A DNA stretch of 64,000 nucleotides, from the IMG/VR virus record IMGVR_UViG_3300028829_004004, positions 1 through 64,000 of that record; one strand, given 5' to 3'. Origin of the DNA: a virus. This document shows, in pieces, positions 989 to 63,996 of this stretch. Position 1 is the stretch's first letter. Each line of letters opens with the position of its first letter. The notes beneath the pieces were generated by a model. That model made no database searches. It was not told the DNA's origin and worked only from the letters and a program-made list of their open reading frames with translations. The position numbers and the translations under genes were made by a program.

Positions 989-1002
989 TGCAAACGTTTG
1001 CA
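989..1002. promoter_or_regulatory. Dispersed palindrome site 1 (intergenic)
   Basis: Perfect TGCAAACGTTTGCA. It lies between the terminator at 984 and the start codon at 1065, where an operator would sit. Confidence 0.85.
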
Positions 1003-1064
1003 AATAACAGCACAATCACCAATCTTAGTGACTAAGAGCTAGACTACCACAACACGAGGACAAT

Positions 1065-2420
1065 ATGAGTTTCCAGTTATTCAAGAATTTAGGACAATGG
1101 CTGCGCGGAGAAAACGCGCTGTCACCCACAATCACCGCTGAACTGGCAACCGGATCAGTATCCACAGATAATAGTACTGTGGCGCTACTTGGGCCAGCAG
1201 CTACATTTACAGGTACGGGTGAGCAGAACTTGCTGCCTCACGTAGGTGTCTTTTCCTTTGCAGATGTCGCGGGAACCCTGTACTTCGACTTCTCGGTAGA
1301 CGGGACCAACTGGCATGCATACCCTGTTGCGGGATTCACATGCTCCGCAGGTATCCCTGAGTTCCACACTGCTGTCAAACTGGGCAGGTACTTCCGAGTG
1401 CGCTATGTTAATGGAGCAGGCGGGCAAGCAACCTTCCGGCTATCCACTTACTTCGGTGACAACTTTGTTCCAAGCGTGGCACCCCTGAATCAATCATTGT
1501 CCCCCGACTCTGACGCTACCCTCGTTCGTTCAGTGGCCATAGGGGCAGAGCCTGATGGAACACTCACTAACACTAAGACAGACGGGTTGGGTTTTCAGAC
1601 GGCAACACCCCTGACTAATGGCGAGGTTTATTCAAGTGGGGTGCTAGATCTAAGAAACTATACTCAAGTTGAAACCCATGTACTCTCGGATAAAAACGGC
1701 ACAATCGACATAAGTTTCATCCGGGACTCGGCAGGAACTGACGTACTGCGTACCCTGCAAATTCCGTATGTTGGTGGATCTGGCTTCAAGACTTTCGCCG
1801 CACCTGCTTTCACCCCCTATGTCAAGTATGAATTTACCTGTGATGAGGCAGGGCAGGCCGATTTTTATTATGATACAAAGTTCTTAACTAAGTCTCTGAG
1901 TGCGCAAGTTCTGGGTGTAGACGACTTCATCGCACCCTCCATGGTGACTAACTTGGGCCGGAACATCATAGTGGGGCAAGACGGTGGAGGTACATTCAAG
2001 AACGTGACCACTGTAGAAACCACGAATGATCTGGGCACGTACACCAGTCTGCAAGTGGTCAACGGTGCGCGGCCATCTGAACTCTATGGACGTACTGCGG
2101 TGAGGGTGGTCTCTGACTCTGTTACGGCGGACGGCACACAGTACACGGTAACCGCAGACAAGACGCTCTATGTCACTGACATCATCATGTCGATTGAAGC
2201 TACGACCACTTCACAAGTTGATATCGAGGACGGCACGGCTGGTGGGGGAACGCTGCTCATGCCTTTGCGCATTCCCAACTCAAGTGGACAGTCAAGCGCA
2301 GTAACAGTAGTAGCGCACTCATTCACTGAACCAGTGCCCTTCACAACCGGTATCTACTTTGATATAACCACAGCAGGCACTGTCACCATCAGTAGCTTGA
2401 TAGTTGGCTACGAAGAGTAA
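1065..2420 (+). CDS. Putative virion structural protein
   Basis: A 451-residue protein rich in Thr, Ser, Gly and Val with a beta-sheet character and few charged stretches. The N-terminal third has the pattern of small beta-sandwich domains found in phage virion proteins (FDFSVDGTNWHAY, then GRYFRVRYVNGAG). The C-terminus resembles another jelly-roll-like domain. No signal peptide or enzyme motif is seen. It stands apart from the main leftward structural operon, so it may be an accessory, decoration or baseplate-attached protein. It starts at an ATG after GAGGAC. Confidence 0.6.
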   Translation: MSFQLFKNLGQWLRGENALSPTITAELATGSVSTDNSTVALLGPAATFTGTGEQNLLPHVGVFSFADVAGTLYFDFSVDGTNWHAYPVAGFTCSAGIPEFHTAVKLGRYFRVRYVNGAGGQATFRLSTYFGDNFVPSVAPLNQSLSPDSDATLVRSVAIGAEPDGTLTNTKTDGLGFQTATPLTNGEVYSSGVLDLRNYTQVETHVLSDKNGTIDISFIRDSAGTDVLRTLQIPYVGGSGFKTFAAPAFTPYVKYEFTCDEAGQADFYYDTKFLTKSLSAQVLGVDDFIAPSMVTNLGRNIIVGQDGGGTFKNVTTVETTNDLGTYTSLQVVNGARPSELYGRTAVRVVSDSVTADGTQYTVTADKTLYVTDIIMSIEATTTSQVDIEDGTAGGGTLLMPLRIPNSSGQSSAVTVVAHSFTEPVPFTTGIYFDITTAGTVTISSLIVGYEE

Positions 2421-2434
2421 CATCCTATAACTCT

Positions 2435-2500
2435 GGCTCCCTAAGTTACACATCAACCCAACCTTTGGTCAGGCGGGACGTGGGCTTAGGGAGCCTTCTT
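2435..2500 (+). terminator. Probable terminator, long hairpin
   Basis: Arms GGCTCCCTAAG (2435-2445) and CTTAGGGAGCC (2485-2495) are perfectly complementary over 11 bp, with a loop of about 39 bases, and are followed by TTCTT. The position just after the structural gene fits termination, although the T run is weak and the loop long. Confidence 0.6.
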
Positions 2501-2506
2501 CACTAC

Positions 2507-2520
2507 TGCAAACGTTTGCA
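2507..2520. promoter_or_regulatory. Dispersed palindrome site 2 (intergenic)
   Basis: Perfect 14-bp copy ending 17 bases before the metallophosphoesterase start codon and just upstream of its Shine-Dalgarno sequence. Confidence 0.85.
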
Positions 2521-2537
2521 AATGACAGGAGGTCCAA

Positions 2538-3479: not shown

Positions 3480-3592
3480 GAGGGGTCGCCCTTTTCTCAG
3501 GGCTTCCCCCGCGTGTGTATTACGGATAGGTTGAGAAAATTTTTCCCGCTGCGTGACGTGTAGTCCGCTGGCACTGAGAAGAATTTTTCAAA
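3480..3592. other. Convergent intergenic stretch
   Basis: About 110 bases between the plus-strand terminator and the end of the RuvC-like gene. It holds a short GCCC/GGGC hairpin and A/T-rich blocks (AAAATTTTTCCC and GAATTTTTC). I see no gene and no clear terminator for the leftward operon. Confidence 0.5.
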
Positions 3593-4159
3593 TTATTTTA
3601 GGAGTCTAATTACTGGATCATTCTCTACAGTAATTACTGCGGCGATAGCATCCGCAATGTCCTCGAACTCCCCCTTGAATCCCGTCGTCTTTGACCGGGC
3701 GCTCTTATACTTGTCAGCAACTCCGGGGAACATAGCCGCGATTTCCTTCTGCATCTTGGCCTTACTTGCGTTCGCACATCCACCTACCCTCTTCTTCGAG
3801 TCCTTAGCGGGTACCTCCAAGAGAGGAAGTTCTAGTAGTGCCGTTATGCATGTGACAATAGCCGTAGCAAACGCCATCCCTTTCACCGCGGATGAGGACT
3901 TCCCTCCACCTGAGGGCTGCTCGGACACAACTACTAGTGGCTCGTAGTCATCTATGATAGCCTTGAGCTTATCGGTTATGTGAGCTATGCGGCGGGCGTC
4001 ATCGCTGCTCTTGTAGATGCCCCGCTTCTTATTCTCAGGCTTGGTTTGAATAGCTCCGCTTGCAACTACATCCCAACCCCCTGAGGCCGGGAGCATAATA
4101 CACCACCCAGTGCAAGTAAGGGATGGGTCTAACCCTAGTACAACTAGTGGGTCACTCAT
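3593..4159 (-). CDS. RuvC-like Holliday junction resolvase
   Basis: A 188-residue protein with the RuvC/RNase H-like layout. There is an N-terminal GLDPSLTCTGW strand with the first catalytic Asp, a middle SEQPSGGGKSS segment with a Glu, and a C-terminal EFEDIADAIAAV block with the last acidic pair. The lysine-rich segment SKKRVGG before it resembles the DNA-contact region. It would resolve branched DNA made during recombination or before packaging. It is the last gene of the leftward replication-recombination group. Confidence 0.8.
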   Translation of the reverse strand: MSDPLVVLGLDPSLTCTGWCIMLPASGGWDVVASGAIQTKPENKKRGIYKSSDDARRIAHITDKLKAIIDDYEPLVVVSEQPSGGGKSSSAVKGMAFATAIVTCITALLELPLLEVPAKDSKKRVGGCANASKAKMQKEIAAMFPGVADKYKSARSKTTGFKGEFEDIADAIAAVITVENDPVIRLLK

Positions 4160-4173
4160 TTACGCTCTTACTC

Positions 4174-5028
4174 CTATCTTGTTCCAAAACATTCAAACGC
4201 GAACGGGCACTTACATGCACGCTTGTCCTTCAAAGACAAACACTCCCTCATACTAGGGGGTGGTGGGGTGCCTGCGTCAATCGCCTCCCACAATGTGTGG
4301 ATCTTATCCACAGCCTTGTCCCACAACTCTGGTTCTGCCTTGTAGCTCAAGGTCATCATCTTCTTCGTGTTCATGTTTACGTAGAGGAACACAGTCTCCT
4401 CCATCCCTGTCATGTGCTGGTAGGCACACGCCTGTACACGGTTGTACTCCGGGGGTTGGCGATTACTGATGACGCTCTTGAATGACCACTCATTAGCTGA
4501 CTTGATCTCTAGGTGCTTGAGATCCTCCTCTAAATCATCAGAGGCTTTCACTTCGTCCCCCCTTGCTCCTGCCTCCAAGGCATGGAACACGCTGTTCATG
4601 CGGTTGTTACAGATCAACCCGTCAACATGCCCCGAGAGTTTTAGCTCCTTGTCATATAAGGTATACTCCTCGTAATGGAATGTACCCCCGTCGCATTCAA
4701 CGCAGGCGTCGGGATAGTAACAGTCCTTGTGGGAATGGTGGCAGGTGACACACACCCACTCCCCTTTGAGGAAACCAAGAGGACCAATCACAACTGATTG
4801 TAAGTACTCATGGATGAATGTTCCCAACGTAAAGGTGAAGTCAAGCTCCCGTGTCATCTCTACGTACTTGGCCTCAGGGACTTGGAAGTGTTTGTCCTTG
4901 AAGTACTCCTCCCAGATACACATGTTGAATATCTGGGAGGATCTCACATACTTGGGGGCCTCGAATACTTTCCTCTCCCCCGCAGTCTGCTTGAGAATGC
5001 GGGCAAGTCTCCCAGCCTCACACGCCAT
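4174..5028 (-). CDS. RecB/Cas4-like PD-(D/E)XK nuclease, Fe-S type
   Basis: A 284-residue nuclease of the RecB/Cas4-like superfamily. Motifs in order are an early GTFIHEYLQ helix, GHVDGLI with the metal-binding Asp, LEIKSANEW with the E-x-K pair, and QACAYQ. The C-terminus has Cys in the spacing C-x8-C-x-C-x5-C, which in this family holds an iron-sulfur cluster together with an upstream Cys. A further Cys group (CVTC and CVEC) lies mid-protein. It likely trims DNA ends during recombination. It overlaps the HAD gene by 11 bases. Confidence 0.75.
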   Translation of the reverse strand: MACEAGRLARILKQTAGERKVFEAPKYVRSSQIFNMCIWEEYFKDKHFQVPEAKYVEMTRELDFTFTLGTFIHEYLQSVVIGPLGFLKGEWVCVTCHHSHKDCYYPDACVECDGGTFHYEEYTLYDKELKLSGHVDGLICNNRMNSVFHALEAGARGDEVKASDDLEEDLKHLEIKSANEWSFKSVISNRQPPEYNRVQACAYQHMTGMEETVFLYVNMNTKKMMTLSYKAEPELWDKAVDKIHTLWEAIDAGTPPPPSMRECLSLKDKRACKCPFAFECFGTR

Positions 5029-5744: not shown

Positions 5745-6413
5745 TTACTCCCTCCCTAAAAACTTGAGTACCTGTTGTGACGCTGCCCACCCGGCTGACT
5801 CCTTGAAGGTAAGCTCAGGGAACTTCTGCTTGAACACACTAAGGGGATCATGCATGAAGACATCGAAGGATACCTCGCTCCATCGACCGTACTGCAAACG
5901 TTTGCACCACTTCGCCAAGGTCCCCCTATACTTCTCAACTAACTTGGTAGCTCGGTCGTTGGTAAGGAGATCCCGCACTAGGAAGCTATCCAGAATTCGG
6001 TTAAGCCTTCTACGTACATGGACGATGTGACACTTGATCCCCCGAGCTTCTAACTCTCTCACGTATACAGGTAGAGTTAGGGACAACCGAGGGTCTTTGA
6101 TACAGATAGCGGGACTGTCGTAACGATCAAGGATATCCTTCACCTGCTGGTCATACTTTGTCTCCGTCATTAGGTGGCTGAAGTCTGTCTCTAACTCAGA
6201 TAGAACCCAAGTCCCCGCCTCACCAAGGATAGTGTCATTGAGTCGCACTACCCTCTCATCCTCGAAGAACCCTTTGGGGTTGCCGCGGTCTGCGGGGATA
6301 AGGTCCAGCATCTGAACCGGCTCCCCTTTGTAGTGAGCACGGTAGAAAGTACCAGCCAGTGCCGAGGTACCAGACCGACCCACACCTACCAAAAGATAGC
6401 ATACCTCTGTCAT
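5745..6413 (-). CDS. Sulfotransferase-like P-loop protein (copy 1)
   Basis: A 222-residue protein starting with a strand and P-loop-like GVGRSGTSA (residues 10-18), the 5'-phosphosulfate-binding loop of PAPS-dependent sulfotransferases. KDPRLS at 105-110 fits the 3'-phosphate-binding region. It probably moves sulfate from PAPS to a sugar or other acceptor. It overlaps the recA-like gene by 4 bases, so it is translated from the recombination operon. A dispersed palindrome lies inside, coding CKRLQ. Two more sulfotransferase-like genes and an APS kinase lie on the right. Confidence 0.75.
   Translation of the reverse strand: MTEVCYLLVGVGRSGTSALAGTFYRAHYKGEPVQMLDLIPADRGNPKGFFEDERVVRLNDTILGEAGTWVLSELETDFSHLMTETKYDQQVKDILDRYDSPAICIKDPRLSLTLPVYVRELEARGIKCHIVHVRRRLNRILDSFLVRDLLTNDRATKLVEKYRGTLAKWCKRLQYGRWSEVSFDVFMHDPLSVFKQKFPELTFKESAGWAASQQVLKFLGRE
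5893..5906. promoter_or_regulatory. Dispersed palindrome site 3 (in sulfotransferase gene)
   Basis: Perfect 14-bp copy inside a coding region, read as CKRLQ on the minus strand. Confidence 0.8.
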
Positions 6414-7507
6414 GTTAAAGCTCCCACCACAATCGCGTAGAATACTTCGTATGCATCCAAATCATTTTGGAACTCTTTGATTAACCCATCCTTGCCTTTG
6501 GCCGATAGGGTAACCCCCGCCTCGGGTAGGTCGATCTTCCAAACCCCGGCCCCTACTTTGATTAAATCAAGTTTGCGCCCGTACTTGACAAGAGACTCAA
6601 TGTTGTTGATCTCCCCTGCCTCATACGTTGCCAGTAGCTTGCCCGCCTTTCTACTCTCGTAGTCCAAGAGGGCTAGGTGAAAGGTGTACTCCAGCTTAGG
6701 AGTGAACGTCTTGTTCTTGTGGGCAGTGCCATGGATTTCCACGTAAGCTGACTTCGCCTCACCGGGAGCGTCATGTACTTTCGCCTTAGTGTTGCGGAGG
6801 TGAATAGCCGGGTGGAACAGTTGCCCCTTACCACCGGGGAGGGTAGATGGGTCACCAAACATAACACCAATCTTCTCCCGCATTTGGTTTACACAAATGA
6901 GGGCGGGTCCTGTGCCCCGCTTCTCGGTTAACCCGTTGGTCCACTTGCGGAAACCCTTGTTCATCAGTCGCGCATGAAGTCCGGGGTTCTGCTTCTCAGC
7001 CCCATCCTCGATCTCCTTAGAGGGCAGAGTAGCCTCAATACTGTCAAGGATTATGAGGTCAACGGTGTTCTCCCGGATGGCGGTGTCAATCAAATTGATG
7101 GCGTCCTCCCCACAAAGGGGCCACACCACTAAGTTTCCTTCCGGGTCCATCCCATTTTGGATTGCCCACTTGACATCCAGTGACCCTTCCGTCTCTATCC
7201 ATAGAGCCGATCCCGGAATGAACTCCTCGCACTCACATGGGTAACGCTCCTTGCAGGTGTGGCAGTAGTTCACAACCTCAGAGCACGCCCTGAGTAGGAT
7301 GGTTGTTTTCCCGGAGGACTCTGGACCATACACGAGACTCGTGCGGTTGAAGGGCCAGCCACCTCCAAGGGCGAGGTCAAGTTCAAGAGAACCTGAGCGG
7401 AAGCGTTTCAGCTTGGGGATCTTACCTGCCATAGCTGATAACTCCCCGTCATACTTCTTGTTTATACGGTCTCGGAGATTCTTCAACCGTGTCTCTGTGC
7501 TCTCCAC
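6410..7507 (-). CDS. recA: RecA-like recombinase
   Basis: A 365-residue RecA/UvsX-type strand-exchange ATPase. Walker A is GPESSGKTT at 61-69, Walker B is the LIILDS strand, and the loop L1 region follows with RLMNKGFRK. It differs from bacterial RecA by a Cys cluster just after Walker A (Cys at about 82, 85, 91 and 93), which looks like a small zinc knuckle. The start is GTG at 7507; the RBS is weak and the gene is probably coupled to the upstream acidic-protein gene. It would drive recombination-dependent replication and repair. Confidence 0.85.
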   Translation of the reverse strand: MESTETRLKNLRDRINKKYDGELSAMAGKIPKLKRFRSGSLELDLALGGGWPFNRTSLVYGPESSGKTTILLRACSEVVNYCHTCKERYPCECEEFIPGSALWIETEGSLDVKWAIQNGMDPEGNLVVWPLCGEDAINLIDTAIRENTVDLIILDSIEATLPSKEIEDGAEKQNPGLHARLMNKGFRKWTNGLTEKRGTGPALICVNQMREKIGVMFGDPSTLPGGKGQLFHPAIHLRNTKAKVHDAPGEAKSAYVEIHGTAHKNKTFTPKLEYTFHLALLDYESRKAGKLLATYEAGEINNIESLVKYGRKLDLIKVGAGVWKIDLPEAGVTLSAKGKDGLIKEFQNDLDAYEVFYAIVVGALT

Positions 7508-8070: not shown

Positions 8071-9429
8071 TTACTTTTTTCGTTCACGTGTGAAATCTAA
8101 CTTGGTATACACCTTCTCGCGTGCGCCGAAAAGGCCGTTGGCATAGGGGATTGCGCGGTCTACCACATCGACAACCATTGGAGGCTTCTTCTCCTTGGTA
8201 GGTCGCTGGATACGGCCTACCATCTGAGCGACCCTACTACGAGGTGTAGCAAGAACCAAAGTATCAAGGGAAGGAATATCGGTACCCTCTCCAAACATCC
8301 CATAAGTTGCCAGAACAACTCTGCACTCATCAGCCGTCGCACTCTCCATGTCGTCAGTAGAACGATATTTGACTATCTTACTTCCTGACGAGGATAAGAG
8401 ACCCTCAAGGCTGTCTAGTTGTTTTACTCTGTCGGTGAGCACAAGTGTTTTCCTACCGGCCTTGATTGCTCTCATGCAAACGTTTGCAATCATCTTGTTC
8501 CGGTCTTCGTCTTCTGCTATCATGGTTATCAACTTGGAGGTGTTCAGCCCACCTCCGCGGATCTTGGGGGGCGTCTTCTTTGCCTCCCACTCCATGACAT
8601 AGTAACTACCTTTAACGACTTGCCCGCGCATTGTAACAAGCTGCGGACCAATACTCCAATCGAGTAAGCACTTCAACCCATCCCGGCGATCCGGGGTAGC
8701 TGTGAGACCCAGCTTATAGCGGGCTGAGAAACTGTTAGCTACCTTGGAAAAGGTCTGGCTAGGGACACGATGTGATTCGTCGGACACAAGGAAACCAAAG
8801 TGGTCGAAGAACCCCGAGGCTCGGAAACTTTCGAGACGAGAGTACAAGGTCTGGAAGGTTGCGATCACAATGTGAGCATCCTTGACGCATGGCTCATTAG
8901 CCCGCACCTTGACTACCCGCGCCTCAGGCATGAACCTGTTGATCTCCCTCTCCCACTGGTCCATGAGGTCGCACTTGTGGACGAGGACAATAGTCGGGGT
9001 CTTCATACGTGCGATAAGGTGCAGGGCAGTGATAGTCTTACCCGCGCCGCAGGTTGCTTTGATCCAACCTCCGGTCTGCCCTTCACGGTACGCTTTGATT
9101 ACCGCCTCGTCAGCTACCTGCTGGCCCGGTCGCAATAGCCCCTCAAACTTTGGGGGTCTAGTCCATGGTCCTTTCAGGTGGCTATATTGGGTACAATCAA
9201 ACACTTCAAACCGGGTGAATGTTTTGAAGAAGTACTCACGTGGCATACCAAACCACACATCGCCACCTAGTGTGTTCCTCTCATAATGAGTAGAGACCTC
9301 CGGTGGTACCCCTTTTGCGTAGGGGTTCTCGACTACCAATGTAAGGTCTTCCTTCAACCGCTCAATACCTGTAGAGCCAAGGTCAACAGCGCGCGCCCAC
9401 GCTAATCTATCTAAGGTTACTCGTATCAC
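8071..9429 (-). CDS. SF2 DNA helicase, UvsW/XPB-like
   Basis: A 452-residue superfamily 2 helicase. Q-like upstream region LRPGQQ, Walker A TCGAGKT (Lys about 131), DESH box at about 217-220, motif III LTATPDRRDG, and motif VI QMVGRIQRP are all in order. The N-terminal 90 residues form an extra domain as in T4 UvsW. Such enzymes remodel R-loops and branched DNA to switch replication modes. The start is GTG 9429 with AGGAG upstream, and a good promoter lies just before it. A palindrome site inside codes ANVC. Confidence 0.8.
   Translation of the reverse strand: MIRVTLDRLAWARAVDLGSTGIERLKEDLTLVVENPYAKGVPPEVSTHYERNTLGGDVWFGMPREYFFKTFTRFEVFDCTQYSHLKGPWTRPPKFEGLLRPGQQVADEAVIKAYREGQTGGWIKATCGAGKTITALHLIARMKTPTIVLVHKCDLMDQWEREINRFMPEARVVKVRANEPCVKDAHIVIATFQTLYSRLESFRASGFFDHFGFLVSDESHRVPSQTFSKVANSFSARYKLGLTATPDRRDGLKCLLDWSIGPQLVTMRGQVVKGSYYVMEWEAKKTPPKIRGGGLNTSKLITMIAEDEDRNKMIANVCMRAIKAGRKTLVLTDRVKQLDSLEGLLSSSGSKIVKYRSTDDMESATADECRVVLATYGMFGEGTDIPSLDTLVLATPRSRVAQMVGRIQRPTKEKKPPMVVDVVDRAIPYANGLFGAREKVYTKLDFTRERKK
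8475..8488. promoter_or_regulatory. Dispersed palindrome site 4 (in helicase gene)
   Basis: Perfect 14-bp copy in coding sequence, read as ANVC, a different register from site 3. Confidence 0.8.
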
Positions 9430-12647: not shown

Positions 12648-12661
12648 TGCAAACGTTTGCA
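12648..12661. promoter_or_regulatory. Dispersed palindrome site 5 (start-proximal)
   Basis: Perfect 14-bp copy in the 29-base gap between the end of one small gene (12664) and the chosen start of the next (12634). Confidence 0.8.
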
Positions 12662-12663
12662 TT

Positions 12664-12855
12664 TCAGTTCTTCTTCCCAAATTCTCGGTCGAGGCGCGCT
12701 TGCCAATCAGAGTTTATCCTGTCAAGCTCATCCGCTAACTCTCGTAGGTTACGGGCAGCATAGGCACCACCTGTATTCCACCAGTAGATAAGACCGTCCA
12801 CGTCTTGTACAAACTCCTCGCGTTCATACGCTAATTCCACGATGCTCACTGCCAT
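12664..12855 (-). CDS. Small helical hypothetical protein
   Basis: A 63-residue acidic protein that looks wholly helical, with regularly spaced charges and several Trp. The ATG at 12855 overlaps the stop codon of the glycosyltransferase gene (TAATG), which indicates coupled translation. No family is recognised. Confidence 0.55.
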   Translation of the reverse strand: MAVSIVELAYEREEFVQDVDGLIYWWNTGGAYAARNLRELADELDRINSDWQARLDREFGKKN

Positions 12856-14450: not shown

Positions 14451-15433
14451 AATGATATTGTCTCTCTAAACTCGTGTAATTGTAACTCGTTGGGGTCTTT
14501 GTTTGGGGGTAGTTTCTCGGTCAAATCTTCACAGCATGGTACTCTCCTTTCAAGTAGTTTGTGGGCTTGGTTGGCGCCTTTATTGCCAGCCGTGTCGTTG
14601 TCGAACATAACCCATGTTAGTAATTGTTCAAGTTCGATTTGGTCAATTTGTTCTCGGCTTATTGAACAGCCGCTGATAGCCACTGGCATTACTATCCCCG
14701 CCAACCCTAGCTTTGTTAGATGCTGCCAACAGCGCATGGCGTCAAATGGACCTTCAACCAGTATGTATGTTTTCGTTTCTCCCTCATAGTAAACGGGGGA
14801 GACAAAGCCTAACTCTGTCCTCGTTCCCCAGTAATGTTTCCACTTGTTGTCATCCTCACCGAGGGTTCTCCCACTTGCTCCTACAAACTTACCGGCAAGG
14901 GTATACACCGGGAACACTACCCGGTTATCCCTCTCATCCCACCGGCACCCAAAGTCGCGCCAAGTACGGGAGTCGAACCCTCGCTGAATGAGGTAATGCC
15001 CACCGGGATTGCAAACGGTTGCATTGGGGAGGTTGGTGTCAAACCAATTCCAGAGAGGGTCCATGTCATACACCTCCCTCACGTACTGTGGAGTACCTAG
15101 CCCACCTACAACGCGGCTTATTAAGGTGGATGGTCTACTCTCCTCAGCCATCAATGCCTGCCCCATCTCCCTAAGCTGGTCGCTCCCGCTGTAGATGGAG
15201 AGGGTGGTGAACAGTTGCCAGAACTTCCCCTTCTGCCCGCAACCGAAGCAGCGAAACGTGGAGGCACCATCATCATGGACTGACACAGTGAAGGAGGGAT
15301 TAGCGTCTGACCCCTCATGTGTCCACTGTGCGAATGGGCAAGAGAACTTCAAGTGATTGTTATTCTTCTGGATCGACAACTTGTCGGTTAGTCCTGCTGC
15401 CAACACATAATCTGTTACTTGATTCAGGTCCAT
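14447..15433 (-). CDS. dnaG: DnaG-type DNA primase
   Basis: A 328-residue primase. The N-terminal CHC2-type zinc finger uses Cys32, His39, Cys62 and Cys65. The TOPRIM domain has VEGPFDA for the catalytic Glu and FDNDTAG for the Asp pair. It is shorter than cellular DnaG because the C-terminal helicase-interaction domain is missing; the helicase is a separate gene just upstream. It would make RNA primers for the phage polymerase. A one-base variant of the palindrome lies inside. Confidence 0.85.
   Translation of the reverse strand: MDLNQVTDYVLAAGLTDKLSIQKNNNHLKFSCPFAQWTHEGSDANPSFTVSVHDDGASTFRCFGCGQKGKFWQLFTTLSIYSGSDQLREMGQALMAEESRPSTLISRVVGGLGTPQYVREVYDMDPLWNWFDTNLPNATVCNPGGHYLIQRGFDSRTWRDFGCRWDERDNRVVFPVYTLAGKFVGASGRTLGEDDNKWKHYWGTRTELGFVSPVYYEGETKTYILVEGPFDAMRCWQHLTKLGLAGIVMPVAISGCSISREQIDQIELEQLLTWVMFDNDTAGNKGANQAHKLLERRVPCCEDLTEKLPPNKDPNELQLHEFRETISL
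15010..15023. promoter_or_regulatory. Palindrome variant (GCAAACGGTTGC core)
   Basis: One mismatch from the core, inside the primase gene, read as ATVC. It fits the spacing of the perfect sites on either side. Confidence 0.5.
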
Positions 15434-16692: not shown

Positions 16693-17267
16693 TAGTGGAT
16701 ACCTAGACGTTTAGACATTCTCGTTACTCGCTCTGCTCGGAAGTCCTTCCCGCCGATCTTGACCGGGTAGGTCGCCTCCCTACAAGCCTCATATAGGCCC
16801 TTCGCCTGTTTCTCTAACTGAGACAAAGGCATGTTTGTGGTCAGGATAGTAGGCTTCAACTCTGAGGTGCGGTACCTGAGAAGCTGCTCCACACGTCCTA
16901 AGGAATAGATGCGAGTCTTGTCATGGATTAACTCATCAATCACCAGCAACTCTGCTTCCTCCATCCTGTGGACGTAGGACTCGTACTCGTCAAACCGCGT
17001 GCTCTCAACGTAGTACTCTGCGATCTTATCGAATCGCACAAACAGCGCGGTCTTCGCTGCCTCTATGATTTTCTTTAGGGCAACACAGGCTATCGCGGTT
17101 TTCCCTGAGCCGTGGTCCCCCCAGAGGAGTAACCCCTGCCCCTCTGAAACCATACGCGGTAACTCATTTAGATAGCCGGTGACTATCTCTGAACTTATCT
17201 GCTCTTCAAGGGCACCCTCTCCCCAGTACAGCTTGGGTACCCTTGCCCGTTGTAAATACTTACTCAC
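16692..17267 (-). CDS. dnaC: DnaC-like helicase loader, AAA+ ATPase
   Basis: A 191-residue protein of the DnaC/IstB type. Walker A is GDHGSGKT at 50-57, Walker B is LLVIDEL near 107-113, sensor I is TTN and an Arg-rich C-terminal end carries sensor II. It would load the neighbouring DnaB-type helicase. The gene overlaps the initiator-like gene by 8 bases, a tight operon. Confidence 0.8.
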   Translation of the reverse strand: MSKYLQRARVPKLYWGEGALEEQISSEIVTGYLNELPRMVSEGQGLLLWGDHGSGKTAIACVALKKIIEAAKTALFVRFDKIAEYYVESTRFDEYESYVHRMEEAELLVIDELIHDKTRIYSLGRVEQLLRYRTSELKPTILTTNMPLSQLEKQAKGLYEACREATYPVKIGGKDFRAERVTRMSKRLGIH

Positions 17268-17967
17268 TGAATCCTGCCTCCGGTGAATCGTCTTCTTTGA
17301 ATCGCTTTAGCAGTGTCCGCTCATCAATAAAACCTGTGACCATAGTGTCACGGATTCGCCCAAAGAAGGACCCGGTGGCTAGTAAGTTGAGGGAAGGGGT
17401 TCCCTTCACCTTGAACTTCTCTTTGATCTCATCCCAGTTTTCCATGTAGAAGTGGACTGTCTTAACGTACCCGTCGAAGTCATCTGCCAACCAAGTTAGC
17501 AAACGTTTGCAATAGACACTTCCCATCTTGCTGCTGAGGGGGTAGGTTTTCTCGAACTTCTCCTCGTAGGCTTCCTTGAATACGTTGAAGGCTTTGCCTG
17601 AGGAGTGGCGTTTCTTCTTACCGAAAGCAGGGGCCGCTTTCTCAGTCAGTATCGAGTTCAACCCTGCGTTCCTGCTCTTAGTGAGTTTCTCTTTTACTGA
17701 CTCTGCTATCTTCGTTGCCGGGATAATGTGGTACTCCATCTCGGTTGCTTCATACTGAATAGGTCGGTTGTCTTCCGACAAAAGGCGTCGCCTCTTTAAG
17801 TCGGATATAGAAGCGGATACCCGACTAGGTAGCATCCCTAGTTGGGTGCTCATCTCCTTTACTGAGGGCGTCTCCTCAAAGCAACACAGAAGAGCATATA
17901 CTGCAATTGAGTTAGGGTTAGCTGTTGCGAACGCACCGGCCTGCAACGCCTGTAGGAAGTGTTCCAT
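17260..17967 (-). CDS. Winged-helix replication initiator-like protein
   Basis: A 235-residue protein. The N-terminal 70 residues form a winged-helix domain (SVKEMSTQLGMLPSRVSASISDLKRR), followed by a basic linker and a C-terminal helical domain with the Trp/Tyr pattern of replication organiser proteins of the DnaD/phage O class. First gene of the replication operon, right after a good promoter. It probably binds an origin and brings the loader. A palindrome inside is read as CKRL. Confidence 0.6.
   Translation of the reverse strand: MEHFLQALQAGAFATANPNSIAVYALLCCFEETPSVKEMSTQLGMLPSRVSASISDLKRRRLLSEDNRPIQYEATEMEYHIIPATKIAESVKEKLTKSRNAGLNSILTEKAAPAFGKKKRHSSGKAFNVFKEAYEEKFEKTYPLSSKMGSVYCKRLLTWLADDFDGYVKTVHFYMENWDEIKEKFKVKGTPSLNLLATGSFFGRIRDTMVTGFIDERTLLKRFKEDDSPEAGFSE
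17498..17511. promoter_or_regulatory. Dispersed palindrome site 6 (in initiator-like gene)
   Basis: Perfect 12-bp core GCAAACGTTTGC; the first flanking base is A instead of T. Read as CKRL on the minus strand. Confidence 0.8.
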
Positions 17968-34682: not shown

Positions 34683-34696
34683 TGCAAACGTTTGCA
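34683..34696. promoter_or_regulatory. Dispersed palindrome site 9 (intergenic)
   Basis: Perfect 14-bp copy in the 48-base gap upstream of the tail tube gene. Confidence 0.85.
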
Positions 34697-36763: not shown

Positions 36764-36777
36764 TGCAAACGTTTGCA
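36764..36777. promoter_or_regulatory. Dispersed palindrome site 10 (start-proximal)
   Basis: Perfect 14-bp copy immediately upstream of the DUF1353 start codon, covering the expected ribosome-binding region. Confidence 0.85.
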
Positions 36778-40893: not shown

Positions 40894-40907
40894 TGCAAAC
40901 GTTTGCA
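40894..40907. promoter_or_regulatory. Dispersed palindrome site 11 (intergenic)
   Basis: Perfect 14-bp copy between the capsid terminator and the next start codon. Confidence 0.85.
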
Positions 40908-43481: not shown

Positions 43482-43495
43482 TGCAAACGTTTGCA
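43482..43495. promoter_or_regulatory. Dispersed palindrome site 12 (intergenic)
   Basis: Perfect 14-bp copy in the 45-base gap between the portal and protease genes, 19 bases before the protease start. Confidence 0.85.
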
Positions 43496-47974: not shown

Positions 47975-48331
47975 TTAAGCGAAGTCGCGACGGACTATTC
48001 CCTGCTGCTTCCAGTGGACACGGCAGGGTTTATCCTCGATGAATGTGCGGATGACCTCAAACGTCTGAGAGTCTACGACAAAATGAGAGTAGAAAGCGTC
48101 GAAGTCTTCGTGGGGTTCAACGTCTATGGCGGGTGTGCCCATCTCACTGTCTCGGTAGAAGACTACCCCAAGTTCTTGCAAACGTTTGCTTTCTTGGTTA
48201 ACTTCGAGTTGAGTGTCCGACCAATCCGCGTCCTCTACGAAGTAGGGAATGCGGTGGAGTTCCAGCGGCATACAAGGAAGGAGACTGTACACCTGTATGG
48301 TGAAGTGGCGATCTTCGTATAGGTCGTCCAT
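47975..48331 (-). CDS. Small early-block protein, unknown
   Basis: About 118 residues from the ATG at 48331, which overlaps the upstream stop (TAATGG). Acidic, with a palindrome inside read as SKRLQ. No family recognised. Confidence 0.5.
   Translation of the reverse strand: MDDLYEDRHFTIQVYSLLPCMPLELHRIPYFVEDADWSDTQLEVNQESKRLQELGVVFYRDSEMGTPAIDVEPHEDFDAFYSHFVVDSQTFEVIRTFIEDKPCRVHWKQQGIVRRDFA
48177..48190. promoter_or_regulatory. Dispersed palindrome site 13 (in gene)
   Basis: Perfect 12-bp core; the last flanking base is T instead of A. Inside a small coding region. Confidence 0.75.
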
Positions 48332-48699
48332 TATGCTACCACCTCGCACAGCACACTCTTACCTGACTTGGTCTTTGCAATGATGCGGATGGAAGAGACT
48401 TGCAAGTCGTTAGCGATGAGTTCTTCATGCTGACTGCGCACGATGATACAAACAATCCCCCGGTCCTCCTCCGTGATGAACCACTTCGGTCCTTCCTCGG
48501 AGTTGCGGACAACAGCGTGGCATGTGATAAACCAGCCACCTTCATTTCCCGGCTCCGACTTCAAAGTAATTTGGTCGGAGTCGAAAGGTCTGACGATACT
48601 CGAAGGGATTGGCCCACGCTCTACAAACTGGGAGAACACCCCCGGTGGGATGAAGTCAGAAGAGTACTTCTGCTCGGGCTGGGTTTCTTCTATAATCAT
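48331..48699 (-). CDS. Small protein, unknown
   Basis: A 122-residue beta-rich protein with repeated Val/Ile strands (GIVCIIVRSQHEELIANDLQ). It overlaps both neighbours and belongs to a block of small genes between the hairpin region and terminase. Confidence 0.5.
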   Translation of the reverse strand: MIIEETQPEQKYSSDFIPPGVFSQFVERGPIPSSIVRPFDSDQITLKSEPGNEGGWFITCHAVVRNSEEGPKWFITEEDRGIVCIIVRSQHEELIANDLQVSSIRIIAKTKSGKSVLCEVVA

Positions 48700-50693: not shown

Positions 50694-50709
50694 CAAAGGA
50701 ATGGAAAGG

Positions 50710-51288
50710 ATGTCTAACATTAACCGAAGGTTAGGTCTGGCGTTTGTTCATATCCCAAAGACCGGAGGAGTCGCTGTGTGCGAGTCCCTTGGGTTAGCAA
50801 TACGAGGGCATCAGCGTCTCTCGGAGATGCGCCGGTTCCGTCGTAGGTACTTCTCTTTCTGCTTCGTCCGCAACCCTTGGGACCGAATGGTCTCTGCCTA
50901 CTCGTACTTCAGGGCAGGGGGAAGAGGCCACCGGAATGATATCAAAACTATGCGCGTTGTGCGAGAGAGTTCTACCTTCCCTGAGTTCTGCTCACGATTA
51001 GAAGACCCCGAGTTTAAGCGAAGGCTAGAGAGATGTCGCTCCCCTCACTTCCTACCTCAGGTCCACTGGCATGACCCGCGGATTAAATTGGTGGGGAGGT
51101 TTGATAACTTTGCGGAGGACTTCAAGGAGGTCTGCACGCAGGTGGGCTTACCGGACACTGAGCTTTTAGTTCGGAATACTAGTGAGCACTTACCATACCC
51201 CGAGTACTACACTGAGAGTGCTGCTCAGATTGTTGAGCGGGTCTACAAAGAAGACATTGAAAAATACAACTACAAGTTTGGAGATTGA
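50710..51288 (+). CDS. Sulfotransferase (copy 2)
   Basis: About 192 residues from the ATG at 50710; the ATG at 50701 is too close to the AAAGGA box, so the second is preferred. HIPKTGG at 14-20 binds the 5'-phosphosulfate and CFVRNPWDR near 51-59 the 3'-phosphate of PAPS, as in the Sulfotransfer_2 family. It is the first rightward gene and is followed directly by an APS kinase gene, so the pair can supply and use PAPS. Confidence 0.8.
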   Translation: MSNINRRLGLAFVHIPKTGGVAVCESLGLAIRGHQRLSEMRRFRRRYFSFCFVRNPWDRMVSAYSYFRAGGRGHRNDIKTMRVVRESSTFPEFCSRLEDPEFKRRLERCRSPHFLPQVHWHDPRIKLVGRFDNFAEDFKEVCTQVGLPDTELLVRNTSEHLPYPEYYTESAAQIVERVYKEDIEKYNYKFGD

Positions 51289-51290
51289 TT

Positions 51291-51785
51291 ATGGTTATCT
51301 GGTTCACCGGGCTTTCCGGTTCAGGGAAGACAACACTCGCAAAAGAAATCCTCAAAGTTTTACCCCGCGGATTCCTTGTGGACGGGGACATGCTCAGAGA
51401 AGGGTTGTGTGCTGACCTCGACTTCGACCCACCCTCTCGGCATGAACAGGCACGGCGGGCCGCAGGAGTTGCCAAGATAGCTCATGCAAACGTTTGCACG
51501 GTAGCCTGCTCTGTGATTACCCCACTGGAGAAAAGCCGGGAGGTAGCACGTGAGATGCTCAAAGACTGTGACTTCAAAATGGTCTATGTCAGCACTCCAC
51601 TAAAGGTCTGTCAGCAGAGGGACCCCAAAGGACTTTACGCAAAAGTTGCTGCCGGAGAGATCACTAAGTTTACTGGAATCAGTAGCCCTTTCTGGCCCCC
51701 CGCACAATACGACTCTGTTGTGGACACAACTGATAGAACAATCACTGACTGCCTTGATCAGATTCTTTCTGATATCGGCTTGTAA
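51291..51785 (+). CDS. cysC: Adenylylsulfate (APS) kinase
   Basis: A 164-residue CysC-like kinase from the ATG at 51291, with GGAG upstream. GLSGSGKT at 7-14 is the P-loop, DGDMLREGLC at 31-40 and the DLDF-x6-R-x-E-x3-R block follow, then RDPKGLY and KFTGI near the end, all diagnostic of APS kinase. It converts APS and ATP to PAPS, the sulfate donor. No ATP sulfurylase is encoded, so APS would come from the host. A palindrome inside is read ANVC. Confidence 0.9.
   Translation: MVIWFTGLSGSGKTTLAKEILKVLPRGFLVDGDMLREGLCADLDFDPPSRHEQARRAAGVAKIAHANVCTVACSVITPLEKSREVAREMLKDCDFKMVYVSTPLKVCQQRDPKGLYAKVAAGEITKFTGISSPFWPPAQYDSVVDTTDRTITDCLDQILSDIGL
51485..51498. promoter_or_regulatory. Dispersed palindrome site 14 (in cysC)
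   Basis: Perfect 14-bp copy in coding sequence, read as ANVC. Confidence 0.8.
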
Positions 51786-51842: not shown

Positions 51843-52115
51843 ATGGACCTTGAACGAGAAAAAGTAAATACATTGCGAGAGGCGGGGTTAGGCCACTCGG
51901 TAGCATTAGCAGCGGAAGGGATGTGCCCCACCTGTGCCGAGCCAGTTAGCATCGACGCCCTAGCTGAGGCGGGCTACCTAGCTTTCTACAATGCTTTCGG
52001 GATGTGCCTCGATTGCATTACCCTCCACAAAGAGGAAGACCCGGACGAGCTAATCCTCAAATGTGAACTCCGAGCACATGCTCTCCAAGAGGAGACTTTC
52101 AATGACTCTCTCTGA
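51843..52115 (+). CDS. Small Cys-containing protein
   Basis: A 90-residue acidic protein. CPTC and a later CLDC form a possible zinc-binding set. Its end overlaps the start of the sigma-like gene by 14 bases. Confidence 0.55.
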   Translation: MDLEREKVNTLREAGLGHSVALAAEGMCPTCAEPVSIDALAEAGYLAFYNAFGMCLDCITLHKEEDPDELILKCELRAHALQEETFNDSL

Positions 52116-52590
52116 GCTACAAAACACAGAAGGGTTGGTTGTCAATCTGATAGATAGGATGGCACAAGATCTTCTTGTGTTCTTTGACTTCCGGGACCTT
52201 GTACAGGATTGTATAATTGCGGTCTCAAAAGAGCAACACCGATTCGATGAGGCAAGAGGGAAGTGGTCCACCTTCGTCTCCGTAGTGGTACGCACGGTCC
52301 TTAGCAGGACCCGCACTAAGTGCTACCGGTTACCCCTCTCGCAAGACCCTACCCTCCCTGAGTTCTCGCATTGCCCCGACCCTCACCCTCTACCTTGGGA
52401 AGGTGTGTCCCGAGAGGATATCGCAAGCGCGTACCTCTGCCTCGATGAGAGGGAGAAGAAAGTAGTGGAGGACTTCGTCCATAAGGTGAACCAAGAAGAG
52501 ACCGCGGAAGAGTGGAACATTCACAGGACACGGGTCGCGCAGATCAGAAAGCAGGCTTTTGAAAAAATTAGAACCACCCTCGTAAGGTAA
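52102..52590 (+). CDS. Sigma factor-like protein
   Basis: About 162 residues from the ATG at 52102. A region 2-like helix (FRDLVQDCIIAVSKEQHRFDE) is followed by WSTFVSVVVRTVLSR. A C-terminal region 4-like helix-turn-helix (DEREKKVVEDF, then TAEEWNIHRTRVAQIRKQA) ends the protein. This is the two-domain plan of short extracytoplasmic-type sigma factors. It may direct host RNA polymerase to phage promoters. Confidence 0.65.
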   Translation: MTLSELQNTEGLVVNLIDRMAQDLLVFFDFRDLVQDCIIAVSKEQHRFDEARGKWSTFVSVVVRTVLSRTRTKCYRLPLSQDPTLPEFSHCPDPHPLPWEGVSREDIASAYLCLDEREKKVVEDFVHKVNQEETAEEWNIHRTRVAQIRKQAFEKIRTTLVR

Positions 52591-55024: not shown

Positions 55025-55279
55025 ATGATCACTGGTGCTCTACCTATCCCTCCCTCTGCGTGCCCTTGTAAGGACTATGCAAGAACCGACATACTAGAGG
55101 GAGGACACTCCTCTAGGTGCCCAAATAAAGACCGGGTGGCAGTAGACCTTGGGTGGTTAAAGCTACGGATCAACCACCTAATGAGGCGCGGGCTTTCAGT
55201 CAGTGCCGCCTTTGAGAAGGTGGAAGAGGAACTCTCACGCGAGAAGAAGTATGAGTCAAGAGAACTCAACCCATTCTAG
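55025..55279 (+). CDS. Small Cys-containing protein, unknown
   Basis: An 84-residue protein with a Cys pair (CPCKDY), a later Cys (RCPNKD) and a charged helical C-terminal half. It overlaps a palindrome at its stop codon. Confidence 0.5.
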   Translation: MITGALPIPPSACPCKDYARTDILEGGHSSRCPNKDRVAVDLGWLKLRINHLMRRGLSVSAAFEKVEEELSREKKYESRELNPF

Positions 55280-55291
55280 CAAACGTTTGCA
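55278..55291. promoter_or_regulatory. Dispersed palindrome site 15 (intergenic)
   Basis: Perfect 12-bp core (first flank A instead of T) covering the end of one gene and lying 12 bases before the next start codon. Confidence 0.8.
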
Positions 55292-55303: not shown

Positions 55304-55987
55304 ATGGACAAAGTAATCCTCAGTATGCACTTCGAGAAGTGCGGTGGCACTACCCTCAGATACTTCTGGAAGAAATCCTTCAACGACTCTGAGTTCTTCT
55401 TATACGAGCCTCACCTCTATGAGCATAACGTCCTCATAGAAGAGATTGATGAGGGCGTGGGGCAGTACAAAGATGTTAAGGTAATTCACGGACACTTCGC
55501 GCATGGGCTGCACCTTTCCCTAACAAGACCGTGTGAGTACGTGTGCGTCCTCCGTGATCCAGTGGATCGGTTCATTAGTCACTTCAACCATTGGCGGGAG
55601 TGGGGTCAGGCACCCGCGGGGAGTAACGTCACCGGACAAAAGATAACGATCGAAGAGTTCCTTGAAGACCCCAGCAGTAACAGCATACGCAACCTCATGA
55701 CGAAGAGGTTAGCGGGGTTAGGGTTAACGACAGACGCTACTTGCGAGGACTTCGAGGAGGCAGCTAAGAACCTCAGTGCCTTTTCCGCGGTGGGTTTTGT
55801 TGATAACCTCCCAGAGTTTGGTAAAGAGATCGCGCACAAGTTCGGGTTGAAGGATGCTAACTGTGACTTCAAACTAAACTCCCAGAGACTCGGGACGGTG
55901 AAGCACAAGTTGCCTAAAGAAACGTTAGAGAAGATAGAGATTCTGAACTATTGGGACAGACGGCTCTACAACTCAGTAGTAAAGTAG
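55304..55987 (+). CDS. Sulfotransferase (copy 3)
   Basis: A 227-residue Sulfotransfer_2-like protein. HFEKCGGTT at 9-17 is the phosphosulfate-binding loop and VLRDPVDRF at 82-90 the 3'-phosphate site, with a final NYWDRRLY. It probably transfers sulfate from PAPS to a glycan. The other two copies and the APS kinase make a complete supply-and-use set except for ATP sulfurylase. Confidence 0.8.
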   Translation: MDKVILSMHFEKCGGTTLRYFWKKSFNDSEFFLYEPHLYEHNVLIEEIDEGVGQYKDVKVIHGHFAHGLHLSLTRPCEYVCVLRDPVDRFISHFNHWREWGQAPAGSNVTGQKITIEEFLEDPSSNSIRNLMTKRLAGLGLTTDATCEDFEEAAKNLSAFSAVGFVDNLPEFGKEIAHKFGLKDANCDFKLNSQRLGTVKHKLPKETLEKIEILNYWDRRLYNSVVK

Positions 55988-57938: not shown

Positions 57939-58162
57939 AGGTGATTACTGACGAGAAGCCTACCACCTCCGTTCAACTACGGGTGTTCGCTATTTGCGGC
58001 CTTGGTTTAGATGGGAGGTTTGTCCATCAAAGCGATCTCCTCTGGTTAGAGGGAATAGTCAGGAAGTACCCCAAATGGACAGTCGATGAATTGCAACCGT
58101 TTGCATCTGGGGAGGGAGGAGTCTGCAAGATGGAACCAACAATCAAGGAACAATACAAATGA
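57926..58162 (+). CDS. Small hypothetical protein
   Basis: About 78 residues from the ATG at 57926, overlapping the upstream gene by 13 bases. It contains a palindrome variant (read as LQPFA). No family recognised. Confidence 0.45.
   Translation: MGEVEVITDEKPTTSVQLRVFAICGLGLDGRFVHQSDLLWLEGIVRKYPKWTVDELQPFASGEGGVCKMEPTIKEQYK
58092..58105. promoter_or_regulatory. Palindrome variant (GCAACCGTTTGC core)
   Basis: One mismatch from the core, inside a small gene; in the same register as site 7. Confidence 0.5.
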
Positions 58163-59934: not shown

Positions 59935-60057
59935 ATGGAAGTAACACTAAATGCAAACGTTTGCATGAGCCTATCCTGCGCTAGAGCGGGGTTGCAGCCG
60001 ACGCGCCATGATTGTAAGGGATCTCTCGAGTACGGGAGCCACAAGCCCCATCTCTAA
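59935..60057 (+). CDS. Possible tiny protein over a palindrome
   Basis: A 40-residue frame beginning MEVTLNANVC, three Cys and a basic end. It may be an accident of reading through the palindrome at 59952-59965. Weakly supported. Confidence 0.25.
   Translation: MEVTLNANVCMSLSCARAGLQPTRHDCKGSLEYGSHKPHL
59952..59965. promoter_or_regulatory. Dispersed palindrome site 16
   Basis: Perfect 14-bp copy just after a small gene ends; only 304 bases from site 17, the closest pair in the window. Confidence 0.8.
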
Positions 60058-60165: not shown

Positions 60166-60288
60166 ATGAAGTGTGAGTGGAAAGACGATGTCCGCACAGA
60201 ATGGCAGGATACTTGGGAAGAAGCATTAGAACAGTGGGAAGAGATGATGGCAGAATGCAAACGTTTGCAACCAGAGAAACTAGGATGA
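60166..60288 (+). CDS. Tiny acidic protein
   Basis: 40 residues from the ATG at 60166 with many Glu and Trp. In frame upstream lies CLCDECMKC, a tight Cys cluster, and GGAGG at 60131, but no standard start codon precedes it, so the true start is unclear. Includes a palindrome read as CKRLQ. Ends overlapping the next ATG. Confidence 0.4.
   Translation: MKCEWKDDVRTEWQDTWEEALEQWEEMMAECKRLQPEKLG
60256..60269. promoter_or_regulatory. Dispersed palindrome site 17 (in a tiny gene)
   Basis: Perfect 14-bp copy, 16 bases before the next ATG (60285). Confidence 0.8.
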
Positions 60289-62436: not shown

Positions 62437-62643
62437 GCGGCAATCACGTAATGGGCGAGGTGTGGGCATCCGCCGATAGCCGCACGGTTGCGCTCTTTGA
62501 GGTGCATCCACGCGGTACCAATCAACGACGAAGAGGCACACGGCCATTGGCGGCACATTGCGACCTTGACGCCGGGGGAACTCTGTGCCGCGATTTTGGC
62601 GGCTGCTGAAGCAAAAGCTAACAACCGGATATCCGAACAATGA
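62433..62643 (+). pseudogene. Small gene with a likely frameshift
   Basis: The ATG at 62433 overlaps the previous stop, and the next gene start overlaps a TGA at 62641-62643, yet no single frame spans both. The first frame stops at 62609. The second has a good-looking end (HWRHIATLTPGELCAAILA) but no start. The 211-base length is one more than a multiple of three, which fits a one-base insertion near 62510-62530. Confidence 0.5.
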
Positions 62644-62879
62644 CTGACTACGAAAAGGCAAAAGCTGCGGGACTGACGCAAGTTGACCGATGGGGTGAGG
62701 GCAAAGAACATCACCCTATGTCAGAGAGAATCGCCAACTTCCTTGTGGATCACGATTATCACGACTATGGGGATTATTTTTGCTGGAAGTTGGGAGGCGA
62801 TGGGGACAATGGCGAGACGCTCGCCTTCCAGATGGATGCTTTTTTTGAACTTCTGGATAACGCCAAGGATCTCCCATGA
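62640..62879 (+). CDS. Small hypothetical protein
   Basis: A 79-residue acidic protein with many aromatics (HDYHDYGDYFCWKLGG). Overlaps the methyltransferase start by 4 bases. Unknown. Confidence 0.5.
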   Translation: MTDYEKAKAAGLTQVDRWGEGKEHHPMSERIANFLVDHDYHDYGDYFCWKLGGDGDNGETLAFQMDAFFELLDNAKDLP

Positions 62880-63616
62880 CTGAACGAGGAACGAGAGAAG
62901 GCATTGGCGAGCATCCGCTTGTTCTGCTTGACCTGTTTTGCTGCGAAGGTGGAGCGGGCGAGGGCTATCGACGGGCGGGGTTCGACGTGGTGGGCGTGGA
63001 CATCGAAGATAAAAGTGGGCGCAACCCGCACCGCTTTATTCAAGGTGAAGCGTTGGAATATCTCGCCGCACACGGTCACGAATACGACATCATTCACGCT
63101 AGCCCGCCTTGCCAAAGTTACAGCAAGAACCTGAAACACATGGCCGCACCGAAACCGATGCTGATCGAGCCGACAATAGAACTCCTAAAAAGCACGGGGA
63201 AACCGTGGATCATGGAGAACGTCGATGGCGCACCGCTAGCGACCAGAAGTGAAAACGGCAGGCATGGCGTCGTCCTCTGCGGAACGATGTTCGGAAAGCG
63301 TGTTTACCGACATCGGATCTTTGAAACCTCGTTCCCGATTGTAGCGCCTCGCCCGTGCGACCACTCACGGAAGGCAATGAACCCTTTCAAGCACGAAGGA
63401 TGGTATCGAATCCGTGAGGAGTTCGGGACGGAACACACGCCCGAGAAAGTGTGGCGGCTAGAAATGGGCTTGCCTTGGATGAGCAAGCAGGGAGCAAGGG
63501 AAGCCGTGCCGCCCGTGTTCACGGAATACGTGGGGCGTGAATTTTTGAAGCAGAACGCCGAGATCAGCGGCTTGTCCGCTGCATCGGCTGGTTATCAATC
63601 GCAGGGAGAAGACTGA
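62876..63616 (+). CDS. dcm: DNA cytosine C5-methyltransferase
   Basis: A 246-residue enzyme. LDLFCCEGGAGEG is SAM motif I, VDIE follows, and ASPPCQS near 75-81 (Cys79) is the catalytic motif. ENV-like MENVDG is motif VI, and RHRIFE is present. The middle is short, so the target-recognition region is small, which is common for phage orphan methyltransferases. It would protect phage DNA from restriction; no paired nuclease is seen. Confidence 0.85.
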   Translation: MTERGTREGIGEHPLVLLDLFCCEGGAGEGYRRAGFDVVGVDIEDKSGRNPHRFIQGEALEYLAAHGHEYDIIHASPPCQSYSKNLKHMAAPKPMLIEPTIELLKSTGKPWIMENVDGAPLATRSENGRHGVVLCGTMFGKRVYRHRIFETSFPIVAPRPCDHSRKAMNPFKHEGWYRIREEFGTEHTPEKVWRLEMGLPWMSKQGAREAVPPVFTEYVGREFLKQNAEISGLSAASAGYQSQGED

Positions 63617-63831
63617 TGGGAACCGGACAGAGAAAGGCGCGGGAGGATGAGGAAGACTATATCGACTTATGTGAGAGGTTTGGTGAGGTAGTACAAACCA
63701 AAACCACTGTCGTAGGTGGAGGATGGGGACGGCGGGTCACTTTTGTAGACTGTTATGGTTCGCATGCATCTGAGTTGAGCCGTAGAGCTAACGCGGCCAT
63801 CTCAGACAGAAATCTGCGTGGCGACACGTAG
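63616..63831 (+). CDS. Small hypothetical protein
   Basis: A 71-residue protein with a Gly-rich strand pair (TTVVGGGWGRRVTF). Touches the methyltransferase stop by one base. Unknown. Confidence 0.45.
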   Translation: MGTGQRKAREDEEDYIDLCERFGEVVQTKTTVVGGGWGRRVTFVDCYGSHASELSRRANAAISDRNLRGDT

Positions 63832-63847
63832 CTGGAATACAACAAAA

Positions 63848-63930
63848 GACACGGTAGCTCAGGGCATTTAGTGGTAGAGCACCCGAGACTAATCGGAGAG
63901 GTCGTAGGTTCGAGTCCTACCCGTGTCTCC
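63848..63930 (+). tRNA. tRNA-like gene with CUA at the anticodon position
   Basis: The acceptor arms GACACGG/CCGTGTC, a D arm GCTC/GAGC and a TTCGAGT T-loop with GTAGG/CCTAC all fit. Counting from the T arm, bases 63889-63891 (CTA) are in the anticodon place, which would read UAG. But the anticodon stem pairs only if slipped by one (CCGA/TCGG), leaving a six-base loop, and base 33 is A instead of T. CCA is not encoded. It is a defective, unusual or suppressor tRNA. Confidence 0.6.
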
Positions 63931-63982
63931 TTTGTATTTCCGCCAAGAGCCTAAGCAACCATGATGACACCCTTTAAGCATT

Positions 63983-63996
63983 TGCAAACGTTTGCA
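63983..63996. promoter_or_regulatory. Dispersed palindrome site 18
   Basis: Perfect 14-bp copy after the tRNA-like gene, near the window end. Confidence 0.85.

Follow-up and report, generated by a model that had tools for sequence, protein, structure and literature searches.

Evenly spaced 14-bp dyads with lineage-specific centres in a phage clade: candidate operators for a phage-encoded DNA-binding protein

Introduction

How phage DNA is organised in the cell from entry until packaging is little understood. The stretch analysed here, 64,000 nucleotides covering positions 1 to 64,000 of IMG/VR virus record IMGVR_UViG_3300028829_004004 (hereafter the window), raises this question in a specific form: the 12-bp palindrome GCAAACGTTTGC recurs along its whole length, and one may ask which protein reads it and to what end. 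Our preferred answer, to which we assign a probability of about 0.5, is that GCAAACGTTTGC is the core of a clade-wide 14-bp operator bound by a phage protein, likely the one of family phrog_17202, which would organise or protect the phage chromosome.

The site array

A preliminary description of the window had listed 18 copies of the palindrome, 15 of them extending to 14 bp. All 18 coordinates proved exact, with a perfect GCAAACGTTTGC at each, and 15 copies indeed reach TGCAAACGTTTGCA. In 100 dinucleotide shuffles of the window 0 copies were expected, and palindromes made by shuffling the half-site composition (up to 300), a control proposed in that description, gave a mean of 0.000 copies, which rules out chance or codon effects as the cause of the repetition. 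A scan allowing one mismatch returned 21 copies against 0.12 expected, and the one-mismatch copies at 15011, 29533 and 58093 fall within three of the four largest gaps of the window. Taken together, the near-consensus sites are spaced more evenly than random ones (coefficient of variation 0.55 versus 0.94, P=0.0014). The inverted arm GCAA occurs 26 times at the dyad spacing in the window phage, compared with 1.0 expected, and most carriers have it as their most frequent inverted arm at that distance.

The full virus record (65,525 bp) contains 20 exact copies and none of the pattern read backwards, which served as control. It is incomplete: IMG/VR contig 3300028844_005013 (G004) is identical to it over 26 kb and overlaps both of its ends, and joining the two closes the genome at about 83.3 kb and adds nine sites, giving about 29 exact sites. 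Past the end of the window, two further exact copies (64042 and 64994) and TGCAAATGTTTGCA at 64342 lie in a stretch of ~1.1 kb (record 63,984-65,005). This stretch is without obvious genes and contains A/C-rich short repeats with degenerate dyad copies at 64077-64140 and 64343-64465 of the record; it is possibly an origin or packaging region.

Related phages and the origin of the recogniser

The preliminary description had let its interpretation depend on the presence of the site in relatives, and relatives do carry it. No close relative of the window phage was found in the phage collection; in two environmental relatives with about 69-70% nucleotide identity, G002 and G001, all alignable sites are kept (6/6 and 4/4, respectively), including ones within genes. 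Scans of the collection and of cultured relatives revealed a common 14-bp frame, TGCAA-N4-TTGCA, the centre of which is specific to the lineage. The core ACGT (TGCAA-ACGT-TTGCA) is found in the window phage, in G006 (17 copies), G007 (44) and G008 (15), and in Agrobacterium phage JP1, where the pieces read contain 23 exact 14-mers. Pseudomonas phage PaMx31 of the genus Samunavirus has the core RCGY (28 copies), Rhodobacter phage RcTiptonus has TCGA (19 exact copies, 29 with one mismatch), Rhizobium phage RHph_I4 has CNNG (45 TGCAA-N4-TTGCA in total), and the Vibrio phages KarBoss and J26 have TTAA variants. Some environmental members carry TGAAA or TCCAA arms. No dyad was found in the unrelated phages TCUP2199, Polewnik and psiM100. 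Searches of the openly accessible literature found no report of the motif strings in phages, and the RcTiptonus paper does not mention palindromes. Two IMG/VR loci analysed as controls, L048 and L086, have other enriched dyads, TGGAAACGTTGCCA (9 copies) and TGGCATCGATGCCG (8 copies), possibly belonging to further dispersed-dyad systems of other phages.

The hosts of JP1 and RHph_I4 are both Rhizobiaceae, and the cores of these two phages differ; the ACGT core of JP1 is common to the window phage and others that differ greatly from it in G+C content and protein identity. Because cores differ within one host family and distant phages share one core, these sequence comparisons argue that the recogniser of the dyads is encoded by the phage and not by the host. 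The Rhodobacter core, TGCAATCGATTGCA, occurs once in 61 Rhodobacterales genomes as compared with 19 times in RcTiptonus, so that the tested core is nearly absent from related host chromosomes. A multi-megabase bacterial genome contains TGCAA-N4-TTGCA 3-24 times, and the genome scan, in its first 120 stretches, showed TGCAAACGTTTGCA as sparse single copies only, plausibly including ordinary LacI-family operators. A host-wide chromosomal motif is ruled out by these sparse copies and by the single Rhodobacterales copy of the TCGA core.

The resemblance to LacI-family operators (PurR, CcpA or MalR-like) could also mean that the phage sites act as decoys, titrating a host repressor such as PurR. 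GCAAACGTTTGC matches the LacI-family pattern, TGCAAACGTTTGCA fits the operator pattern TGNAANCGNTTNCA, and PurR and MalR regulon papers contain the 12-mer string. However, the CpG core is not kept, as related phages have TTAA or CNNG and there is also a TCGA core; the core varies freely over 20-44 copies per phage, with a specificity that follows phage lineage and not host, even among phages of one host family. Titration would not need regular spacing either, and we regard decoys as very improbable. Among the phage ORFs scanned with Pfam, no LacI-type protein was detected.

Spacing, placement and orientation

Sites are more evenly spaced than under uniform placement in all 11 genomes analysed (P=0.026 to <0.0002), and close site pairs are depleted in most of them. 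Non-coding DNA is enriched for sites in 10/10 genomes tested, with many sites still lying within genes, and the even spacing continues through late structural genes and coding sequence. No promoter-like element (-10/-35 or other conserved sequence) was detected in the 45-bp flanks, which rules out a promoter-linked element; A/T beside the dyad was seen in some lineages only. The window sites are symmetric and show no consistent orientation relative to transcription. In PaMx31, the best-sampled asymmetric variant is oriented 12:9, although 114 of the 145 genes lie on one strand, while some rarer asymmetric variants in other phages are skewed in orientation.

These features bear on a comparison drawn in the preliminary description, that with phage stoperators. 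A phage repressor bound to the dyads could act as a roadblock or operator-bound silencer, blocking initiation or elongation of transcription genome-wide and giving lineage-specific immunity. In number of sites, intergenic enrichment and diversification of the motif by lineage the arrays do resemble the stoperators of Cluster A mycobacteriophages (PMC6550527), a system typified by the L5 repressor, with 20-30 short sites per genome, many of them intergenic, and with motif and recogniser diverging between lineages. Stoperators are asymmetric, oriented with transcription and found in temperate phages (PMC6550527, PMC9283540); they measure 13-14 bp, lack dyad symmetry and have a known repressor. 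The sites described here are instead perfect 12- to 14-bp dyads, which departs from that definition (PMC6550527), they have no preferred direction in the window or, at 12:9, in PaMx31, and they run evenly through late structural genes. Among the ORFs of the window phage scanned with Pfam, which take in the small ones only in part, no integrase and no LacI- or CI-type repressor was found. In symmetry and orientation the stoperator comparison does not hold, and we consider silencing of this kind unlikely, albeit the strongest of the alternatives.

A candidate recogniser

Ten phages of the clade were compared for shared protein families. Those found in all ten comprise replication, recombination and virion proteins and one family of unassigned function, phrog_17202. 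In most of the ten its gene follows those for RecA, a putative Holliday-junction resolvase, a Cas4-like nuclease and RuvC. The protein has a conserved, confidently predicted helical domain with the signature RKAMYLI...GWSKAKE and tails rich in lysine, alanine and proline that resemble those of histone H1. AlphaFold models show a C-terminal strand region and two helices, without significant Pfam or PDB match. Judging from these models, the strand and helices could be a ribbon-helix-helix fold; regulators of that type (MetJ, Arc, CopG) form beta-alpha-alpha dimers that bind a dyad through the strand. Among loci picked solely by phrog_17202 homology, 18 of 35 contained an enriched dyad matching the frame, compared with none of the 22 control loci from phages (P=2e-5), a result that ties the clade of the gene, and not the gene alone, to the dyad.

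Residues of phrog_17202 also covary with the core. Across 28 phages, residue 239 (numbered as in the window phage, like residue 297 below) is W where the core is TTAA, mostly A where it is TCGA or TYRA, and mostly aliphatic where it is ACGT, and its association with the core is the highest among about 2,000 columns from eight families. Residue 297, in the strand, is mostly K where the core is T-C or C-N-N-G and S, A or T where it is ACGT or TTAA; with more phages it splits the core classes perfectly, but we weigh it lightly because helicase and RuvC have one such perfect column each. In the set of ten phages, almost no class-diagnostic residues were found in any family.

Alternatively, the sites could mark the DNA for replication or recombination (as chi-like, origin-like or strand-processing sites) and be read by the RecA/Cas4/RuvC/helicase module instead of phrog_17202. 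In favour of this, the module is universal in the clade and the sites are evenly spaced. However, chi-type sites are asymmetric whereas the present site is a perfect dyad, and columns of the module enzymes follow the core less closely than those of phrog_17202. We consider this alternative unlikely, and somewhat less probable than silencing.

Two further proteins were considered as recognisers. In the window phage, a helix-turn-helix (HTH) protein is encoded beside the large terminase, an arrangement that is syntenic in other phages, and the dyads could be dispersed binding sites of a small terminase that functions in packaging. The HTH region diverges strongly among ACGT-core phages (window phage versus G007 and G008) and falls into different families in JP1, RcTiptonus and KarBoss, which speaks against the protein as the recogniser; in addition, a headful pac site is normally single, and a packaging function appears improbable. 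The second candidate arises from the other comparison made in the preliminary description, that with parS/Noc-like systems, and a partition or nucleoid-occlusion system of the ParB/Noc/KorB type has some basis in the clade: ParB profiles match proteins of G006, G007, G008, JP1 (3505-4386 of PQ741606), KarBoss, PaMx31, RHph_I4 and RcTiptonus, and in several members the ParB_N gene adjoins the terminase. The same profile search detected no ParB_N protein in the window phage, the overlapping contig G004 or J26, which excludes it as universal recogniser and leaves the parS/Noc reading without the ParB-family protein it needs.

In sequence, the dyad differs from parS, from the Noc site and from the operators of KorB. 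The last of these, a dozen or so palindromes along the ~60-kb replicon of IncP plasmids, are comparable in being dispersed, but they are read by a ParB-family protein and their sequence is unrelated to the dyad. Sites of Noc, SlmA and MatP are likewise dispersed palindromes, and the dyads, too, would have a dimeric DNA-organising protein as their reader; the former lie on chromosomes, their motifs are conserved and their proteins known, whereas here the cores are lineage-specific, the carrier is a phage and no Noc, SlmA or MatP protein was identified. We rate a system of the ParB/Noc/KorB type, like host decoys, as very improbable.

Several observations weigh against phrog_17202 as the protein that reads the dyads. 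In the window phage its gene lies on the overlapping contig, outside the virus record. No dyad was detectable in 17 of the 35 phrog_17202 loci, or in L354-L357, further loci that carry the gene. The core class follows phylogeny, which confounds the covariation between residues and core and makes it no more than suggestive, and RecA columns come near those of phrog_17202 (reduced-alphabet z 7.1 versus 8.4). Sequence and fold searches of the PDB gave no significant match between phrog_17202 and known DNA-binding proteins. Of the alternatives set out above, silencing is the most probable, followed by recombination marks and packaging. Because core and phylogeny run together, RecA columns are close and structural matches are insignificant, phrog_17202 stays a candidate; it is the best one and the most likely recogniser, a predicted DNA-binding protein.

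Possible function

The broader suggestion of the preliminary description, a binding site for a protein that organises or regulates DNA, is well supported by the perfect dyad, its positional conservation and even spacing and its presence in relatives; neither of the systems named there fits. In the mechanism that we favour, TGCAA-ACGT-TTGCA would be an operator bound symmetrically by a phage-encoded protein. It belongs to a clade-wide set in which the dyads of each lineage number 20-50, are evenly spaced and keep their arms, while the four central bases are specific to the lineage. phrog_17202 would sit at intervals of 2-5 kb along the phage chromosome as it replicates or recombines and, as a nucleoid-type protein within the replication-recombination module, may organise or protect the DNA. 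The dyads, their spacing and conservation, the lineage-specific cores and the scarcity of the tested core in related host chromosomes can be read from the sequences, whereas we infer which protein recognises the dyads and that it organises the DNA; this role is favoured over gene-by-gene control because of the even coverage, the retention of sites in coding sequence, their symmetry and the lack of consistent orientation.

The dyads found throughout the group point to a previously unreported phage DNA-binding protein that marks the entire chromosome. More tentatively, a large, ancient and mostly virulent-looking clade may encode phrog_17202 as a sequence-specific chromosome-organising protein that loads on the dyads along the whole genome and co-diversifies with their cores, as a viral counterpart of nucleoid or loop-anchoring proteins. 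If so, phrog_17202 would gain a function, and the dyad would provide a signature for detecting the clade in metagenomes. The question is directly testable, since laboratory phages that infect Pseudomonas, Vibrio, Rhodobacter and Agrobacterium carry the dyads, the predicted recogniser is just one protein, and the natural core swaps among relatives are ready-made specificity controls.

Other features of the window

The window phage is a tailed phage encoding large terminase, portal, head protease, family-A DNA polymerase, DnaB-type helicase and primase, and further encodes RecA, RuvC, a sigma factor, ThyX, APS kinase and sulfotransferases. Sites and selected genes are compiled in Table 1.

Table 1. 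Dyad sites and genes discussed in the text (window coordinates)
Feature	Position	Strand	Remarks
Site TGCAAACGTTTGCA	989-1002		upstream of + strand gene at 1065
Site	2507-2520		closely upstream of + strand gene at 2538
RuvC-like resolvase gene	3593-4159	-	recombination module with RecA
Site	5893-5906		within gene 5745-6413
RecA-like gene	6410-7507	-	recombination module; adjoined in relatives by candidate recogniser gene
Site	8475-8488		within helicase gene 8071-9429
Site	12648-12661		immediately past stop of gene 12664-12855
One-mismatch site TGCAAACGGTTGCA	15010-15023		occupies 4.85-kb gap
Site AGCAAACGTTTGCA	17498-17511		within gene 17260-17967
Site	19711-19724		within gene 19495-20766
Site	24159-24172		start of gene 23723-24178
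One-mismatch site TGCAAACTTTTGCA	29532-29545		middle of largest gap (10.5 kb), within 1455-aa gene
Site	34683-34696		intergenic; same position in G002
Site	36764-36777		conserved in G001 and G002
Site	40894-40907		conserved in G001 and G002
Site	43482-43495		between portal and protease-like genes; conserved in G001 and G002
HTH protein gene, small-terminase-like	46671-47345	-	upstream of large terminase; disfavoured as recogniser
Site TGCAAACGTTTGCT	48177-48190		within gene 47975-48349; 12-mer conserved in G001 and G002
Site	51485-51498		within APS-kinase gene; 12-mer conserved in G002
Site AGCAAACGTTTGCA	55278-55291		closely upstream of + strand gene at 55304
One-mismatch site TGCAACCGTTTGCA	58092-58105		occupies 4.67-kb gap
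Site	59952-59965		intergenic
Site	60256-60269		
Site	63983-63996		edge of ~1.1-kb stretch (record 63,984-65,005)

The sigma factor, encoded at 52063-52590, is of the sigma-70 family with regions 2 and 4. Two sulfotransferase-like genes and the APS kinase gene (50701-51288, 51285-51785 and 55304-55987) suggest sulfation of a surface polymer or metabolite. A tRNA-like sequence at 63850-63935 (GGTAGCTCAG...GGTTCGAGTCC...), unrecognised by ARAGORN and Rfam, is perhaps a degenerate tRNA. In the tail-gene region (26510-27370), the motif GAGGAGGAACTAGAC is present in seven copies, mostly 36 bp apart.

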